A stretch of DNA of 64,000 nucleotides from the NCBI RefSeq assembly GCF_007197775.1, contig NZ_CP041638.1, forward strand, positions 2,356,001 to 2,420,000. The letters run 5' to 3'. The notes under the pieces were generated by a model. That model was not told the origin of the DNA, did not search any database, and was given only the letters and a program-made list of their open reading frames with translations. Of this stretch, positions 51,348-57,253 are shown in pieces. Positions within the stretch are counted from its first letter, which is position 1, and each line of letters opens with the position of its first letter. This DNA is from Thalassotalea sp. PS06 (GTDB lineage: Bacteria; Pseudomonadota; Gammaproteobacteria; Enterobacterales; Alteromonadaceae). The translations under genes were made by a program, and so were the position numbers.

Positions 51348-52163
51348 ATGTCAGAATCACTTATCAGTTCTAGCTTTGACGCGACATCGAGCCCTGCAGA
51401 AATAAGGCAGGCAATACGAAAAGGCGAATATCGGTCACATACCTCAGGATTTGCGAAGGGCTTTGTGCAATGCAACCTGGTGATTCTTGAACAACATCTT
51501 GCCGCAGACTTTTTATTATTCTGCCAGCAAAATCCAAAGCCCTGCCCGCTAGTGGCAATATCTGACAGTCCGGGAAATCCAATCATTCGTGGCGCTGGCG
51601 ACGATATCGACATTCGCAGTGATGTTCCCAACTACAAAGTATTCTTAGACGGGGAATTTAATACTGCAACCACTAACATTGCTGACATCTGGCAAGATAA
51701 TTTCGTTAGTTTTCTACTCGGCTGTTCGTTTTCTTTTGAAGAAGCTCTGATTGATGACGGTATTGAAATCCGCAACATCTCTGAAGGGGTTAATGTCCCC
51801 ATGTATAACACCAGTATTGCCTGTAAAAGCGCTGGAAGGTTTAACGGCAACATGGTCGTGAGTATGCGTCCAATGAAGAGCGCTGATGCCATCCGGGCAA
51901 TTCAGATCTGTAGCCGGTTTCCCAGCGTCCATGGTGCTCCTGTGCATTTTGGCGACCCTAATGAGATTGGCATTGCAGATATCGATAAACCGGATTTTGG
52001 CGACCGGGTAACCATCAAACCGGGCGAAGTACCGGTGTTTTGGGCCTGCGGAGTAACCCCGCAGATTGCTATCAAAAACGCAAAACCGGCAATCAGTATC
52101 ACTCACAGTCCGGGAAGCATGTTAATTACCGACATTCGCAATAGTCATTTATCGGTATTGTAG
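51348..52163 (+). CDS. DUF1445 (YcsI-like) protein, D-glutamate cyclase N-terminal domain family
   Basis: This 271-residue protein is a DUF1445/YcsI family member. Conserved parts are [14 protein letters not shown] (35-48), [17 protein letters not shown] (147-163), [12 protein letters not shown] (193-204), FWACGVTPQ (231-239) and [12 protein letters not shown] (251-262). The family matches the N-terminal half of mammalian D-glutamate cyclase (DGLUCY) and occurs as ycsI with pxpA in Bacillus subtilis. The exact reaction of the stand-alone bacterial protein is not settled; 'hydro-lyase' is an automatic name. The ATG has no clear ribosome site. It begins the pxp cluster. Confidence 0.88.
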
Positions 52164-52175
52164 TAAAAGGATACG

Positions 52176-52904
52176 TTGATGAAATTAAACTGTGATTTAG
52201 GTGAAAGTTTTGCCGCCTGGAAAATGGGATTGGATGAAGAGGTGATGCCGCACATTGATATGGCGAATATCGCCTGCGGCTTCCATGCATCTGACCCGGA
52301 TACGTTGCAAAAAACGTTATCTCTCGCCATTGAGCACAATGTTTTGATCGGCGCCCACCCTTCTTATCAGGATCTTCATGGTTTCGGGCGTCGCTCGATT
52401 AAACATAGTGAACGGGAAATTATCAATCTGATGCACTATCAAATTGCTGCCATCGATGGCATGGCGCAATCACAGGGTGCCATGGTGCACTATGTCAAAC
52501 CGCACGGAGCCCTGTACAACGACATGATGGCCAAACCTGAAGTATTTACCGCGGTCGTAAAAAGTATTCATCAGTTTTACCGACCGTTAAAGTTAATGAT
52601 TCTGGCTACCGCCGATGCAGCCAATTATCAAAAAATTGCTGAACAATATTCCGTTGAGTTAATTTTTGAAGCCTTCGCCGACAGGCGGTACACGCCTGAA
52701 GGGCGATTAACACCGAGAACAGAACAAGGGGCGATTCTCAACAAACAACAAGTCATGGAACAGGTAACCCTGCTTGTCAACCAAGGACAAGTTATCACCA
52801 ATGCCGGAACCCCACTCTCCCTTAAAGCTGACACCTTATGCGTTCATGGTGACAACCATGAGTCCGTCGCTTTGGTTAAGGAAATTAAAGCGCTATGTCA
52901 GTGA
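52176..52904 (+). CDS. pxpA: 5-oxoprolinase subunit PxpA (LamB/YcsF family)
   Basis: PxpA is part of the bacterial ATP-dependent 5-oxoprolinase that turns 5-oxoproline into glutamate. The 242-residue protein opens with MKLNCDLGESFAAWKMG and has MANIACGFHASDPDTL, GAHPSYQDLHGFGRRSI, HYVKPHGALYNDM and EAFADRRYTPEGRLTPR, all diagnostic. AAGGA precedes the ATG. It lies 12 bases after the DUF1445 gene and overlaps pxpB by 10 bases. Confidence 0.95.
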   Translation: MMKLNCDLGESFAAWKMGLDEEVMPHIDMANIACGFHASDPDTLQKTLSLAIEHNVLIGAHPSYQDLHGFGRRSIKHSEREIINLMHYQIAAIDGMAQSQGAMVHYVKPHGALYNDMMAKPEVFTAVVKSIHQFYRPLKLMILATADAANYQKIAEQYSVELIFEAFADRRYTPEGRLTPRTEQGAILNKQQVMEQVTLLVNQGQVITNAGTPLSLKADTLCVHGDNHESVALVKEIKALCQ

Positions 52905-53650
52905 AACCAGAATCCGATGTGCAGATAAAATCTGACGAACCTGGGGTACCGTTTTACCTGGAGGTGGCTTCAGAGAATTCTTTAATTGTTTATTTTGGTA
53001 AAACCTGTCCGCAACAAGCGGTAACGGTAACACCAGCGCTGTGCATGGCAATAAATCAAGCCCAAGCGAAGTTAAAATCAGCCCTGCAATCGATTATTCT
53101 CGATATGGTGCCCTCTTACGCGTCATTACTGATCACCTATGACTCCTGGCAAACCGATCATTTTCATATCAAAAGTCAAGTTGAGAAAATTCTGATCGAC
53201 CTCAACCTTGAAGATACCCAATCGACGCGAACCATTACCCTACCGGTTTATTATGATACTAGTGTTGGTCCCGATCTCGAGCGCATTGCATCCCATGCAG
53301 GGATTACCACCGATGAAGTTATCCAATTGCATCTGCAGCAGGATTATTACGTCTATACCATAGGCTTTGCGCCAGGATTTGCTTACTTGGGGGAAGTTAA
53401 TGACACCATTGCCATGCCAAGACTTGCTACCCCCAGAAAGGCCGTAGCTAAAGGTTCGGTAGCCATTGCCGATAAACAAACGGCAATATACCCACAAACA
53501 TCGCCCGGTGGATGGAATATCATCGGCCGCTGCCCGACAGAAATGTTTTCTCCGGATAACGACCCGGCCATTCCCGTTGCGGTTGGTGACAAAGTAAGGT
53601 TTAAAGCCATCAGCAAGAAGCAGTTTCTGGCTCTGGGGGGACAGCTATAA
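52895..53650 (+). CDS. pxpB: 5-oxoprolinase subunit PxpB (KipI family)
   Basis: PxpB is the KipI-type subunit of the 5-oxoprolinase complex. The 251-residue protein has the family's LPVYYDTSVGPDLERIASHAG, YTIGFAPGFAYLGEV, RLATPRKAVAKGSVAIAD and TSPGGWNIIGRCP. The name KipI comes from the Bacillus kinase inhibitor; the metabolic role is the general one. It overlaps pxpA by 10 bases and pxpC by one. Confidence 0.95.
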   Translation: MSVKPESDVQIKSDEPGVPFYLEVASENSLIVYFGKTCPQQAVTVTPALCMAINQAQAKLKSALQSIILDMVPSYASLLITYDSWQTDHFHIKSQVEKILIDLNLEDTQSTRTITLPVYYDTSVGPDLERIASHAGITTDEVIQLHLQQDYYVYTIGFAPGFAYLGEVNDTIAMPRLATPRKAVAKGSVAIADKQTAIYPQTSPGGWNIIGRCPTEMFSPDNDPAIPVAVGDKVRFKAISKKQFLALGGQL

Positions 53651-54594
53651 TGTCGGGTTTTTATGTCGAACATCCAGGTATGCACTCGCTTATTGAGGAT
53701 GCTGGTCGTATTGGTAAAGCAAATCTTGGTCTGACAACTGGCGGTCCAGCGGATCGTATGGCGTTTTATTGGGGAAATCGATTACTTGAAAACCCAAGGG
53801 GCTGTGCAGCTGTTGAAATTACCTATGGCGGCGTCAAGCTCCATAGTAGTTGTCAAACCAACATAGCCATTACCGGTGCAGCCGTAGAAACCAAGATTAA
53901 TGGTGAAGTCGTCGGTAATTGGCAAAGCCATCCGGTTAATAAAGGTGATTGCATTGAAATCGGTTTTAGCCGCAACGGCATAAAGGCCTACTTGTCAGTC
54001 AAAGGTGGATTTGCCATCAAAGAACAGTTTGGCAGTTGTGCGACTGTGGTTAGGGAAAAAATCGGTGGCTTACACGGTAAGGCTCTGCAAAAAGGAGATT
54101 TTCTCCCTGTCGTTTCTTCGATATGCACTTATCGCAATACCTTGCCCGAGGAAGCCATCCCCCATTATTCGGATTCATTAACCTTGAGGTTAATTACCGG
54201 TTATCAATATTCGCAGTTCAGTCCCCAACAACGGCAACGGTTCTTTAGCAGCGAATATCAGGTTTCCAGTCAGTGGGACAGAATGGGTTACCGATTACAG
54301 GGCCCGGCAATTAAGTTTCCGCAGCAAGCCATGCTAAGCGAAGGCATTGCCTTTGGAGCAGTGCAAATACCAGCAGATGGTCAGCCTATCGTGCTATTGA
54401 ACGATCGACAAACCATTGGCGGTTACCCGAAAATCGGCTCAGTATTTTCACTTGATGCTTATCAATTAAGCCAATGTCAACAAGGTGCAAAGGTTCGATT
54501 CGAGCCCATCAATATTGAAAATGCTCACAACGAATTGTACCTGGCGCAATCTCGTTTTAGACAGGTTGAATTTATTAAAACGGCGGTGGCTTAG
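53650..54594 (+). CDS. pxpC: 5-oxoprolinase subunit PxpC (KipA family)
   Basis: PxpC is the biotin-dependent-carboxyltransferase-like subunit of 5-oxoprolinase. The 314-residue protein has the family patterns GMHSLIEDAGRIGKANLGLTTGGPADRM, YLSVKGGFAIKEQFGSCATVV, SSQWDRMGYRLQGPAI and IPADGQPIVLLNDRQTIGGYPKIG. Together with PxpA and PxpB it forms the full complex. Its stop codon overlaps the GTG start of the next gene by one base. Confidence 0.95.
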   Translation: MSGFYVEHPGMHSLIEDAGRIGKANLGLTTGGPADRMAFYWGNRLLENPRGCAAVEITYGGVKLHSSCQTNIAITGAAVETKINGEVVGNWQSHPVNKGDCIEIGFSRNGIKAYLSVKGGFAIKEQFGSCATVVREKIGGLHGKALQKGDFLPVVSSICTYRNTLPEEAIPHYSDSLTLRLITGYQYSQFSPQQRQRFFSSEYQVSSQWDRMGYRLQGPAIKFPQQAMLSEGIAFGAVQIPADGQPIVLLNDRQTIGGYPKIGSVFSLDAYQLSQCQQGAKVRFEPINIENAHNELYLAQSRFRQVEFIKTAVA

Positions 54595-55451
54595 TGAAAT
54601 ACGACGAATGCGAGCTGCAGTTAAGCCAGACAATCGAATCTTTGCTGGTACAACGAAACCTGAGGCAAATGCAGTTTGCACAGAGATTTCTAACGCCCGG
54701 CTATTACCTGCGCGCGGCGAAACGTATTGAACAGTGCCAGGGCAACATAGTGATTGCCACAGGTTTTCCGGTTTCTGACACCTTTGAAACCGATGGCCCG
54801 ATTGGTGCCTTAGCATTGTACACCTGCTTATTCGCCTTAGGGAAAAACGTGATATTGGTATGCGGAAATCCACTTTACCAGGCCCTACACCAGCGTTATC
54901 AATGTGCACAAATTCCATTAGGAAAAGGCCGGGAAAAACAAATTCAAGGAGTGGTGGATACGCTGCAACCAGAGTTAATCATTGCCATTGAGAGACCTGG
55001 ATTAACCGCAGACAATACCTACCGGAATATGCGTGGTGAAGATATCTCTCATCGTTGTGCACGTTTTGACGATTTCATTGCTCTGGCGGATTGCCCCACT
55101 ATCGCAATTGGAGATGGTGGAAATGAAATCGGCATGGGCAATATTGCCGAACATATTGCAACACTGGATATCATTCCATCAGTGACAAAATGCGATGAAC
55201 TGCTCATTGCGGATGTATCTAACTGGGCAGCTTATGGCCTTATCACCTTTCTTGGGATTTGGTACCAACAAGATTTACTGGCCGAGATTGATATCGAAGC
55301 AACCATAAGCTTTTTATCGGCAAATGGCAGTGTTGATGGGGTAACCCGTAAAAATCAGTTAACCGAAGACAGCTTGTGCTTTAGCGCTGGCGTAGACATT
55401 ATTAAACAATTGCAAGTACTGAGCGAGAGCCACACTTCCTCAGCGAATTAA
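54594..55451 (+). CDS. DUF4392 protein, D-glutamate cyclase C-terminal domain family
   Basis: This 285-residue protein belongs to DUF4392, the family of the C-terminal half of mammalian D-glutamate cyclase. Conserved parts are IVIATGFPV with ETDGPIGALAL (52-74), ELIIAIERPGLTADNTYRNM (127-146) and the glycine-rich AIGDGGNEIGMGNIAE (171-186). The GTG start overlaps the pxpC stop by one base (TAGTG), a sign of coupling. With the DUF1445 gene it would make the two halves of DGLUCY, proposed to form 5-oxo-D-proline from D-glutamate. Activity here is inferred. Confidence 0.9.
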   Translation: MKYDECELQLSQTIESLLVQRNLRQMQFAQRFLTPGYYLRAAKRIEQCQGNIVIATGFPVSDTFETDGPIGALALYTCLFALGKNVILVCGNPLYQALHQRYQCAQIPLGKGREKQIQGVVDTLQPELIIAIERPGLTADNTYRNMRGEDISHRCARFDDFIALADCPTIAIGDGGNEIGMGNIAEHIATLDIIPSVTKCDELLIADVSNWAAYGLITFLGIWYQQDLLAEIDIEATISFLSANGSVDGVTRKNQLTEDSLCFSAGVDIIKQLQVLSESHTSSAN

Positions 55452-55464
55452 GGTAAAACAGACT

Positions 55465-56322
55465 ATGAATTGGGTATATCTAAACGGTGAATACATGCCA
55501 GCTAAACATGCTCGTATTTCGCCGATGGATCGAGGCTTTTTATTTGGCGATGGCATCTATGAAGTGATCCCTAGCTATGGTGGTCAGTTCGTTGGCTTTA
55601 AGCCCCACATCGAAAGACTGAACCAAGGATTAGCCGAAGTGGAAATACACCTGGACTATGATGTCGATAAATGGCGTGATATCTGCGCCCAATTAGTCCG
55701 TAAAAATGGCAATGGTAATCTAGGCGTGTATTTGCATGTTTCACGGGGTACCAGCCCGGTTCGCTACCATGCCTACCCTGAAGATGTCACACCGACGGTA
55801 TTTGCCTATACGTTTGAAATTCCACCAGCACCTGTGGCAGATAAGAACAAAGCGAAAGCATTTAAGGTCAAAACCTTGTCAGATCTTCGCTGGCAGCGAT
55901 GCCATATCAAATCAACAGCACTACTGGGTAATGTCATGCATTTTCAAGCCGGTTACAAACAAGGCTTTGATGAAGTGTTGCTTTTCAATAATGACGATAT
56001 GCTTACCGAGGCCGCAGCCTGTAATGCATTTGTCATAAGCGACGATTGCGTGATAACACCGCCGTTGGACAATCAGTTACTACCGGGAATTACTCGTTTC
56101 ATTTTATTAGATGTATTAAAAAACTACTCATCATTAACCGTAAAAGAGAGGCCAGTCAGTAGACAGGAAGTTGATGATGCCGATGAAGTCTGGATAACCA
56201 GTTCAACAAAACAAGTAGCTCCGGTTGTTGCCATCGATGGCAAACCAGTCGGTAATGGGCAAGTGGGAGATGTCTGGCAAATCGCCCAGAAACTATTCAG
56301 TGAGCATCAGTTTGACTATTAG
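55465..56322 (+). CDS. dat: D-amino-acid transaminase (class IV, PLP-dependent)
   Basis: This 285-residue protein is a fold-type IV aminotransferase like D-alanine aminotransferase, which exchanges amino groups between D-alanine, D-glutamate and their keto acids. The N-terminus has ISPMDRGFLFGDGIYEVIP; the PLP lysine is K149 in RCHIKSTALLGNVM. The LTEAAACNAFVI segment and the C-terminal DEVWITSSTKQVAPVVAIDG are also typical. AAGG precedes the ATG. It lies 13 bases after the DUF4392 gene. A branched-chain or 4-amino-4-deoxychorismate lyase role is less likely given the neighbours. Confidence 0.9.
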   Translation: MNWVYLNGEYMPAKHARISPMDRGFLFGDGIYEVIPSYGGQFVGFKPHIERLNQGLAEVEIHLDYDVDKWRDICAQLVRKNGNGNLGVYLHVSRGTSPVRYHAYPEDVTPTVFAYTFEIPPAPVADKNKAKAFKVKTLSDLRWQRCHIKSTALLGNVMHFQAGYKQGFDEVLLFNNDDMLTEAAACNAFVISDDCVITPPLDNQLLPGITRFILLDVLKNYSSLTVKERPVSRQEVDDADEVWITSSTKQVAPVVAIDGKPVGNGQVGDVWQIAQKLFSEHQFDY

Positions 56323-57253
56323 TAACCATCACTACCTACTGGCAGACAACTGGTATAAAGAAGGTCAGTACTTTAACTATGCTGACCTGCAAATTTTTTA
56401 CCGCGATAGCAATCAAATCCGTAACGATAACAAAGATCTTAAGACGGCGAAGCCGGTTCTGGTACTGCTTCATGGTTTCCCCACCTGTAGCTGGGATTAT
56501 GCCGCTATCTGGCCAATTCTGACCCAGCACTTTCGTGTGGTCACATTAGATTTCCTCGGTTTTGGAATGAGTGACAAACCACTGATGAAATACTCAATAT
56601 TTCAACAGGCAGATATTACCCAGGCATTACTCGAGCACCTTAACATCAAACATTTTCACCTGCTTTCCCATGATTTTGGTGACACAGTGGCTATAGAATT
56701 ATTGGTTCGCTTGCAAAAACAGGGGCAGGTTCAATCACTGGTACTTACTAATGGTGGGATATTTGCAGAATTCCACCAACCTTTACTGATCCAAAAACTG
56801 CTGGCATCAGGCCTTGGTAAATTTATCACACCGCTAATCAATTTCCGACTTTTCAAGCGCTCCATGGATAAAATTATGACCAAACCCATGCCAGAATCGC
56901 AGGCTGAGCAGTACTGGCAATTGCTCAATATTCACCGTGGCAAGCGGGTATTTCCTAAATTGATAAAATACATGAAAGAGCGAAAGCAGAACCGTGCCCG
57001 ATGGGAGGGAGGCCTGGCGGCAACCTCAGTGCCGGTAGGGTTGATAGCCGGAGAAGATGATCCTATTAGCGGTAAATTGATGATCCAGGGCTATCGAACG
57101 ATAAAACCTGAGAACACTGTGATAGCTATGGCAAACACTGGCCACTACCCCCATACCGAAGCGCCTGAGCAATTTCTAAAACATCTATTCCTAATATATC
57201 AGACACTTGGCATTATACCAATCCCATTAAGTTTGTGCACAACTCAGAGTTAG
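56300..57253 (+). CDS. MEST-like alpha/beta hydrolase
   Basis: This 317-residue alpha/beta hydrolase starts at GTG 56300 inside the end of dat (23-base overlap). An oxyanion motif HGFP (58-61), the nucleophile elbow LLSHDFGD with Asp125, an acid in AGEDDPIS and a histidine in NTGHYPHTE are visible. An aspartate nucleophile points to epoxide-hydrolase or dehalogenase-type chemistry. Segments LTNGGIFAEFHQPLLIQKLL and the LSHDFGD elbow closely resemble vertebrate MEST (PEG1), whose substrate is unknown. The last 12 codons appear to come from a MITE-like repeat; the native C-terminus is probably lost. Confidence 0.85.
   Translation: MSISLTISNHHYLLADNWYKEGQYFNYADLQIFYRDSNQIRNDNKDLKTAKPVLVLLHGFPTCSWDYAAIWPILTQHFRVVTLDFLGFGMSDKPLMKYSIFQQADITQALLEHLNIKHFHLLSHDFGDTVAIELLVRLQKQGQVQSLVLTNGGIFAEFHQPLLIQKLLASGLGKFITPLINFRLFKRSMDKIMTKPMPESQAEQYWQLLNIHRGKRVFPKLIKYMKERKQNRARWEGGLAATSVPVGLIAGEDDPISGKLMIQGYRTIKPENTVIAMANTGHYPHTEAPEQFLKHLFLIYQTLGIIPIPLSLCTTQS

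Follow-up and report, generated by a model that had tools for sequence, protein, structure and literature searches.

Gene order and conservation of the operon

The genome of Thalassotalea sp. PS06 is a single contig of 3.795 Mb, and the 64,000-nucleotide stretch of it analyzed here (hereafter the window) contains, at positions 51348–56322 of the forward strand, six genes in the order DUF1445-pxpA-pxpB-pxpC-DUF4392-dat (Table 1). Judged by their families and their distribution they make up a genuine operon that is conserved among relatives, and its predicted role in D-glutamate metabolism is coherent. The six open reading frames (ORFs), with their strand, coordinates and families, had been put forward in a sequence-only reading of the window and are confirmed by ORF calls and by Pfam scores that lie well over the cut-offs in all six cases. 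Adjacent genes overlap or are at most 15 bases apart. The gap between DUF1445 and pxpA is 15 bases from the ATG of pxpA and 12 from the TTG, so that the earlier figure of at most 13 bases holds within the choice of start codon. pxpA and pxpB overlap by 10 bases, pxpB and pxpC by 1, and pxpC and DUF4392 by 1, and a gap of 13 bases precedes dat. A promoter and terminator scan of the region gave counts matching those of shuffled sequences (13 vs 12.4; 4 vs 6.5), and we assign neither a start nor an end of transcription.

Table 1. Genes of the operon, with window coordinates and Pfam scores.
Gene	Position	Strand	Remarks
DUF1445 / UPF0317 (PF07286 'D-Glu_cyclase')	51348..52163	+	271 aa; Pfam 226 bits
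pxpA, 5-oxoprolinase subunit A	52179..52904	+	ATG start, TTG at 52176; PF03746 299 bits
pxpB, 5-oxoprolinase subunit B	52895..53650	+	PF02682 224 bits
pxpC, 5-oxoprolinase subunit C	53650..54594	+	PF02626 285 bits
DUF4392 (PF14336 'GLUCM-like_C')	54594..55451	+	285 aa; GTG start over pxpC stop; Pfam 221 bits
dat, class IV D-amino-acid transaminase	55465..56322	+	PF01063 165 bits

A scan of named genomes with a DUF4392 alignment returned 571 relatives, of which the best 80 loci, a set weighted to near relatives, were analyzed (loci are designated L). Their hosts are gammaproteobacterial where they can be assigned, and among named DUF4392 proteins those of Thalassotalea are the closest. The sequence-only reading had named an absence of co-occurrence of dat and DUF4392 with pxpABC among relatives as a possible argument against itself; all six genes, in the same order and within 6.5 kb, are found in 53 of these 80 loci, a degree of conservation far beyond chance. 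Taken singly, DUF1445 is present in 66 of the loci, pxpA in 72, pxpB in 70, pxpC in 71 and dat in 69. Among the 27 loci without the full set, a contig end lies upstream in six (L008, L044, L050, L059, L064 and L076) and downstream in one (L060), and in L083 PxpC is fused to DUF4392; this leaves 19 variants, with a gene missing locally or more distant. DUF4392 is rare in the class as a whole (2 of 274 genomes) and is found in 30 of the 147 genomes sampled from the window's own family, Alteromonadaceae (designated G). The proposal that the six genes form a single unit stands as far as the conserved order goes, and is qualified in that the set also splits into two or three units, with dat beside pxpA where DUF4392 is lacking and with DUF1445 and DUF4392 standing apart from pxpA.

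The DUF1445-DUF4392 pair and PxpABC

The DUF1445 protein scores 408 bits against NCBIfam NF003969 ('putative hydro-lyase', cut-off 324), has relatives in the PDB (3db9 and 2pif) and gives a predicted model with a pLDDT (predicted local distance difference test score) of 88. It resembles the N-terminal half of animal D-glutamate cyclase (DGLUCY), and the DUF4392 protein resembles the C-terminal half. DGLUCY is a reversible, Mn-dependent enzyme. The animal mitochondrial protein (9030617O03Rik or C14orf159) is described as consisting of DUF1445 and DUF4392 domains in one polypeptide (PMC5339696, PMC5132392), whereas here each of the two domains has a gene of its own, the two genes flank pxpABC in an operon that also includes dat, and cyclase activity is predicted. 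In a preprint table, six matches of human GLUCM in gut bacteria are entered as 'split' (PMC11580864). The acidic metal ligands of the DUF4392 protein (E65, D67, E133, D174, E178 and D248) are identical in 98 of 98 sequences and are shared with the archaeal protein TON_0340, where the counterparts are E59, D61, E115, D157, E161 and D246. TON_0340 is a Thermococcus DUF4392 protein (PDB 4fc5, 5gl2–5gl4) characterized as a weak Mn phosphatase, in a report whose account of the family gives archaea as having no DUF1445 homologue (PMC5132392).

Among the 147 family genomes, DUF4392 is present in 30, DUF1445 in 31 and both in 29 (Fisher p 3e-27). DUF4392 is unaccompanied in one genome only (G382, in which a contig end falls inside pxpA), and DUF1445 in two genomes of a single genus (G370 and G399). 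In each of the nine genera that are polymorphic for DUF4392, DUF1445 tracks it genome by genome, and in 26 of the 29 genomes holding both no more than 8 kb separates the two genes. Because of this joint presence, genus-level agreement and close linkage, DUF1445 and DUF4392 look like one enzyme in two pieces that matches the domain make-up of DGLUCY, and the comparison with DGLUCY drawn in the sequence-only reading is borne out to the extent that both domains are present and are gained and lost together. The pair also moves as such: it stands apart from pxpA in 5 of 30 genomes (G411, G317, G339, G311 and G298), all of them among the 26 with close linkage, it is found with both members together ahead of pxpABC in L119, and it is linked to dat in L114. 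In L118 (G317) the order is GH3-DUF1445-pxpB-pxpC-DUF4392-dat without pxpA, which is located 500 kb away (L192). Among 12 named genomes with unusual DUF4392 loci, 11 have DUF1445 somewhere, the exception being that of L036. The two domains were never found as one ORF in the 83 loci holding both.

Two sets of observations weigh against strict pairing and against reading a function from the family name. PF07286 has matches in the Bacillus subtilis control, which is without DUF4392. In addition, 65 plasmid records matched as DUF4392 relatives, and among the matches listed six were examined. A Pseudoalteromonas plasmid carries the module; the other five, from Paraburkholderia, Agrobacterium, Sinorhizobium, Salipiger and Aminobacter, are all less than 30% identical, and no annotated DUF1445 or pxp gene lies near them, the neighbors being transporters and racemase-type or RidA genes. 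The family name alone is therefore no proof of cyclase function.

Several single loci are of note with respect to the pair. The Oceanospirillum DUF4392 gene in L036 (9992–11904), in a genome without DUF1445, is followed by a gene for a TAXI-type solute-binding protein, which hints at uptake of a glutamate-like compound. The PxpC-DUF4392 fusion in L083 (8987–10810) is a natural one of 607 residues from a single metagenome bin (Porticoccaceae). In Pseudoalteromonas (L046, 8464–11707; L065, 8451–11700; also L195) the order is GH3-DUF1445-pxpA-DUF4392-dat without pxpBC, the converse of L118, and the genomes of L046 and L065 have a single pxpC located elsewhere. An apparent DUF1445 fusion in L052 and L067, a 691-residue ORF with an N-terminal part of 430 residues, was rejected: this part is Arg-rich and has no Pfam match at E 10, and was taken as upstream read-through of GC-rich DNA, despite the fact that the two ORFs are alike over their full length (69%).

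All three subunits of 5-oxoprolinase are encoded between the members of the pair. PxpA scores 357 bits against NF003816 (cut-off 213) and is 34% identical to Escherichia coli PxpA; PxpB scores 151 bits against TIGR00370 (cut-off 145.55) and is 43% identical to its E. coli counterpart over 127 residues; PxpC scores 270 bits against TIGR00724 (cut-off 230) with 33% identity, and does not reach the cut-off of 500 for the equivalog model NF045499 (223 bits). The three subunits are shared with the known systems of E. coli (pxpBCA), B. subtilis (ycsF-kipI-kipA) and Corynebacterium glutamicum (pxpTABC), from which the window operon differs in having no transporter gene among its six and in including dat and DUF4392. 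We take YcsI of B. subtilis to be a DUF1445 protein. The B. subtilis pxp operon is described as also holding ycsI, along with a Mn importer (PMC10448178).

A FastTree phylogeny of concatenated PxpABC was built from the 134 of 161 loci in which all three subunits are of normal length; 132 of these are distinct. Named loci and family genomes partly overlap (L122 repeats L022, L123 repeats L027 and L115 repeats L015). All 80 DUF4392-linked sets fall within one clade of 86 tips (support 95), and the E. coli proteins are placed outside it. Linkage to dat, on the other hand, changes 15 times over the tree and also occurs outside the DUF4392 clade. In two family genomes pxp genes are joined, with PxpA, PxpB and PxpC in one 851-residue ORF in L193 (3635–6190) and PxpB and PxpC in one ORF in L187 (3634–5541).

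Dat, D-glutamate supply and the cell wall

Dat of the window has the carboxylate trap Y32, V34 and R100-x-H102, together with F27 and P36. The canonical D-amino-acid transaminase motif, in B. subtilis numbering, consists of F26, Y31, V or A at 33, K, R, P or T at 35 and R98-x-H100, with xYxQ near residue 88 (PMC10003956). At the last of these sites the window protein has VYLH, with Y retained and H replacing Q. Over 88 Dat sequences the Y, E, V, H and pyridoxal phosphate (PLP) lysine positions are invariant, R is present in 86, and P in 86 with S in the other two. The nearest solved structures are D-amino-acid aminotransferases. Both top NCBIfam models likewise describe D-amino-acid transaminase, with scores under the cut-offs (227 vs 277 for TIGR01121 and 251 vs 320 for NF005209). 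Compared with known enzymes of this type (DAAT/Dat, EC 2.6.1.21), the protein shares the Y31/V33/RxH trap and differs in the H for Q, in its sub-cut-off scores and in its placement in a pxpABC operon. By its motif the gene product is predicted to be a D-amino-acid transaminase, and the D-specificity claimed for it in the sequence-only reading is supported by the trap. The same genome has another ORF resembling class IV transaminases (G000:C1:1241233-1242027), with 38% identity to dat.

In the family genomes, dat was called at 250 bits or more (66 genomes; 12 others have weaker class IV matches of 155–224 bits) and MurI over its curated cut-off of 146.65 (87 genomes; 26 more have weaker matches at E ≤ 0.001). 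So defined, MurI is missing from 47 of the 66 genomes with dat and from 13 of the 81 without it (p 1e-11), and the difference persists when one genome is taken per genus (15/24 vs 3/28, p 1e-4). Because dat and MurI avoid each other in this way, Dat is probably the source of D-glutamate in the relatives that have dat and lack MurI. The window genome itself encodes MurI (219 bits) as well as dat, so Dat is presumably not the sole D-glutamate source here. Neither a strong dat nor an over-cut-off MurI was found in 13 of the 147 genomes (G278, G298, G322, G327, G331, G357, G362, G374, G385, G390, G394, G410 and G414).

The association of dat with pxp genes extends beyond the six-gene operon. Of the 61 family genomes with both dat and pxpA, 45 have the two genes within 6 kb, and 27 of these 45 are without DUF4392; pxpA itself is present in 132 of the 147 genomes, independently of dat (p 0.42). 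In 31 of the best 80 loci an alr gene stands beside dat on the same strand, and all three of the dat-adjacent Alr proteins checked score over the TIGR00492 alanine racemase cut-off. pxpABC-dat-alr operons without DUF4392 make up 10 of 20 loci in a sample picked for dat near pxpA, the same arrangement without the pair is seen in L144, L148 and L151, and pxpABC occurs with alr and without dat in L183 and L188.

D-glutamate and D-alanine are components of peptidoglycan, and in some relatives peptidoglycan-hydrolase genes directly precede the operon. The upstream neighbors were surveyed in 161 loci, a few of which repeat one genome. A GH3 gene of two-domain length with the motif KHFPGHG....DSH, which we take to be the NagZ signature, is found in the same orientation and no more than 35 nt upstream in L046, L065, L118, L132 and L133 (before DUF1445) and in L145 (before pxpA); in four further loci (L116, L126, L129 and L130) the distance is up to 1.2 kb; matches 4.5 kb away in L018 and incomplete on the opposite strand in L034 were excluded. 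Three of these GH3 proteins were checked and score 193–206 against the NCBIfam beta-N-acetylhexosaminidase model, just below its cut-off of 207. A gene for a lipoprotein-like protein, in which amidase_2, peptidoglycan-binding and beta-lactamase-fold domains were read in L035 and which was recognized by similarity in the other loci, is located on the operon's strand 77 and 85 nt before DUF1445 (L035 and L131), 36 nt before pxpA (L150) or at 1.4 kb (L007). A membrane protein resembling NagX (205 bits against a cut-off of 480) is likewise encoded on that strand, within 45 nt, in L007, L119 and L126, after exclusion of matches 5 kb away in L065 and of two short opposite-strand matches in L027 and L123. 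None of these three genes adjoins the window operon; a GH3 protein 51% identical is encoded elsewhere in the window genome. The cell-wall link suggested by the sequence-only reading gains independent support from these hydrolase genes, since peptidoglycan contains both D-amino acids, and this support comes from relatives and not from the window.

Possible roles of the operon

The sequence-only reading had envisaged a closed route from D-alanine through D-glutamate and 5-oxo-D-proline to glutamate. In this form the route lacks support. Neither cyclizing D-glutamate nor hydrolyzing the lactam alters the alpha carbon, and because configuration is retained on ring opening the chain ends at D-glutamate and not at usable L-glutamate. 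To our knowledge no epimerase function has been described for these families. Without an epimerizing enzyme, a cycle of cyclase and PxpABC only burns ATP.

The account we prefer, to which we would give an even chance of being correct, is that the operon is a module for a D-glutamate pool tied to the wall, with supply by Dat and Alr, drainage by the split cyclase and recovery by PxpABC. Dat, with Alr as a seventh gene in many relatives, would interconvert D-alanine plus 2-oxoglutarate and D-glutamate plus pyruvate. DUF1445 and DUF4392 would form a two-protein Mn-type cyclase, in effect an unfused DGLUCY, converting D-glutamate to 5-oxo-D-proline, and PxpABC would reopen 5-oxoproline at the cost of ATP, giving D-glutamate by retention of configuration. 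Cyclase and PxpABC together could then act as a drain-and-recover valve on D-glutamate, and Dat and Alr could either transfer its carbon and nitrogen into 2-oxoglutarate and alanine or take D-glutamate off for use in the wall. We favor this pool module because the linkages of dat with pxpABC, of the pair with pxpABC and of the pair with dat (L114) all share D-glutamate or 5-oxo-D-proline. Built on gene identity, order, co-occurrence, active-site residues and linkage patterns, it presumes all of the enzyme activities, the acceptance of the D form by PxpABC and the direction of flux. With respect to direction, the avoidance between dat and MurI points to synthesis. Breakdown is what the wall hydrolases point to, as does the rarity beside DUF4392 of full-length DUF1611, presumably the dgcN family, which seldom shares a genome with it (3/40, p 0.02).

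Two other explanations are less probable, and we rank them equally. According to the first, which we consider rather unlikely, the operon carries out an ATP-driven deracemization: the pair would both cyclize D-glutamate and epimerize the oxoproline, and L-specific PxpABC would then yield L-glutamate, so that D-alanine and D-glutamate derived from the wall would pass irreversibly to L-glutamate. This is the route of the sequence-only reading made stereochemically sound. It would ask no new specificity of PxpABC, the presence of two proteins would allow two steps, and it accords with the ycsI gene in the B. subtilis pxp operon and the PF07286 matches in that control, with the peptidoglycan genes ahead of some operons and with the scarcity of DUF1611 noted above. 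The dgcN pathway belongs to gene families other than those of the window operon. It is another costly, irreversible racemization route for removal of D-glutamate in marine bacteria (PMC12363236). Against the proposal, structure comparisons named no epimerase for DUF1445 or DUF4392, which does not amount to exclusion, and the pxpABC-dat-alr operons without the pair are left unexplained. Furthermore, where the product of mammalian DGLUCY is described it is 5-oxo-D-proline, without an L-glutamate peak (PMC5339696).

The second, for which our expectation is similarly low, is housekeeping by enzymes that work side by side, in which PxpABC repairs 5-oxo-L-proline, Dat and Alr supply D-glutamate for the wall and the pair removes any excess, with no common 5-oxo-D-proline intermediate; an operon would be shared since all of the enzymes act on glutamate-family metabolites. 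The established action of PxpABC on 5-oxo-L-proline, the presence of pxpA in most family genomes irrespective of dat and the wall supply suggested by the avoidance between dat and MurI are all consistent with such an arrangement. The repeated, separate linkage of dat with pxpABC, the PxpC-DUF4392 fusion and the gene overlaps argue instead for a shared substrate. Finally, it is highly improbable that DUF4392 is a dinuclear-Mn phosphatase aiding PxpABC, for example on a phosphorylated ring-opening intermediate, with DUF1445 as partner or regulator, given that an animal protein combining both domains is reported to consume D-glutamate and make 5-oxo-D-proline (PMC5339696), that the activity reported for TON_0340 is very low (PMC5132392) and that five genomes have the pair away from pxpA.

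The gene families themselves are already known; the novelty lies in how they are combined, in the near-obligate pairing of the split cyclase and in the exchange of Dat for MurI. In the open-licence literature, no title among the matches listed describes the operon, and two papers by Yu et al. (2022, 2023) on marine use of D-glutamate and D-alanine could bear on it and, like the 2017 paper of Niehaus on PxpABC, might already cover some of it. The same literature yielded no paper testing the two domains of DGLUCY as separate bacterial proteins and none in which PxpABC was assayed with the D form, D forms going without mention in one Pxp paper. The occurrence of the domains as separate bacterial proteins allows the roles of the DGLUCY halves to be tested singly. 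The avoidance between dat and MurI suggests that many relatives make wall D-glutamate via D-alanine, a point of relevance both to wall physiology and to how D-amino acids turn over in seawater. Should the doubtful deracemizing pathway prove true, it would be a hitherto undescribed route that could replace glutamate racemase irreversibly, and each half of DGLUCY would have a catalytic job of its own.

Other genes near the operon were judged not to be part of it. An alpha/beta hydrolase ORF that follows dat (56225–57253, forward strand, with a possible GTG start at 56300) is found beside dat only in the window and in T. litorea (L006) among the 80 loci. An upstream AMP-binding ligase gene (26 loci, on both strands) and an upstream acyl-CoA thioesterase gene (16 loci, on the opposite strand) were regarded as chance neighbors. 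As a variation on the gene order in relatives, DUF4392 and dat are separated in L037 and L057 by regulator genes of the LysR and Lrp/AsnC types and, on the other strand, by a PLP lyase gene whose product is Cds1-like in L057; a LysR gene also stands ahead of dat in L039 and L058.

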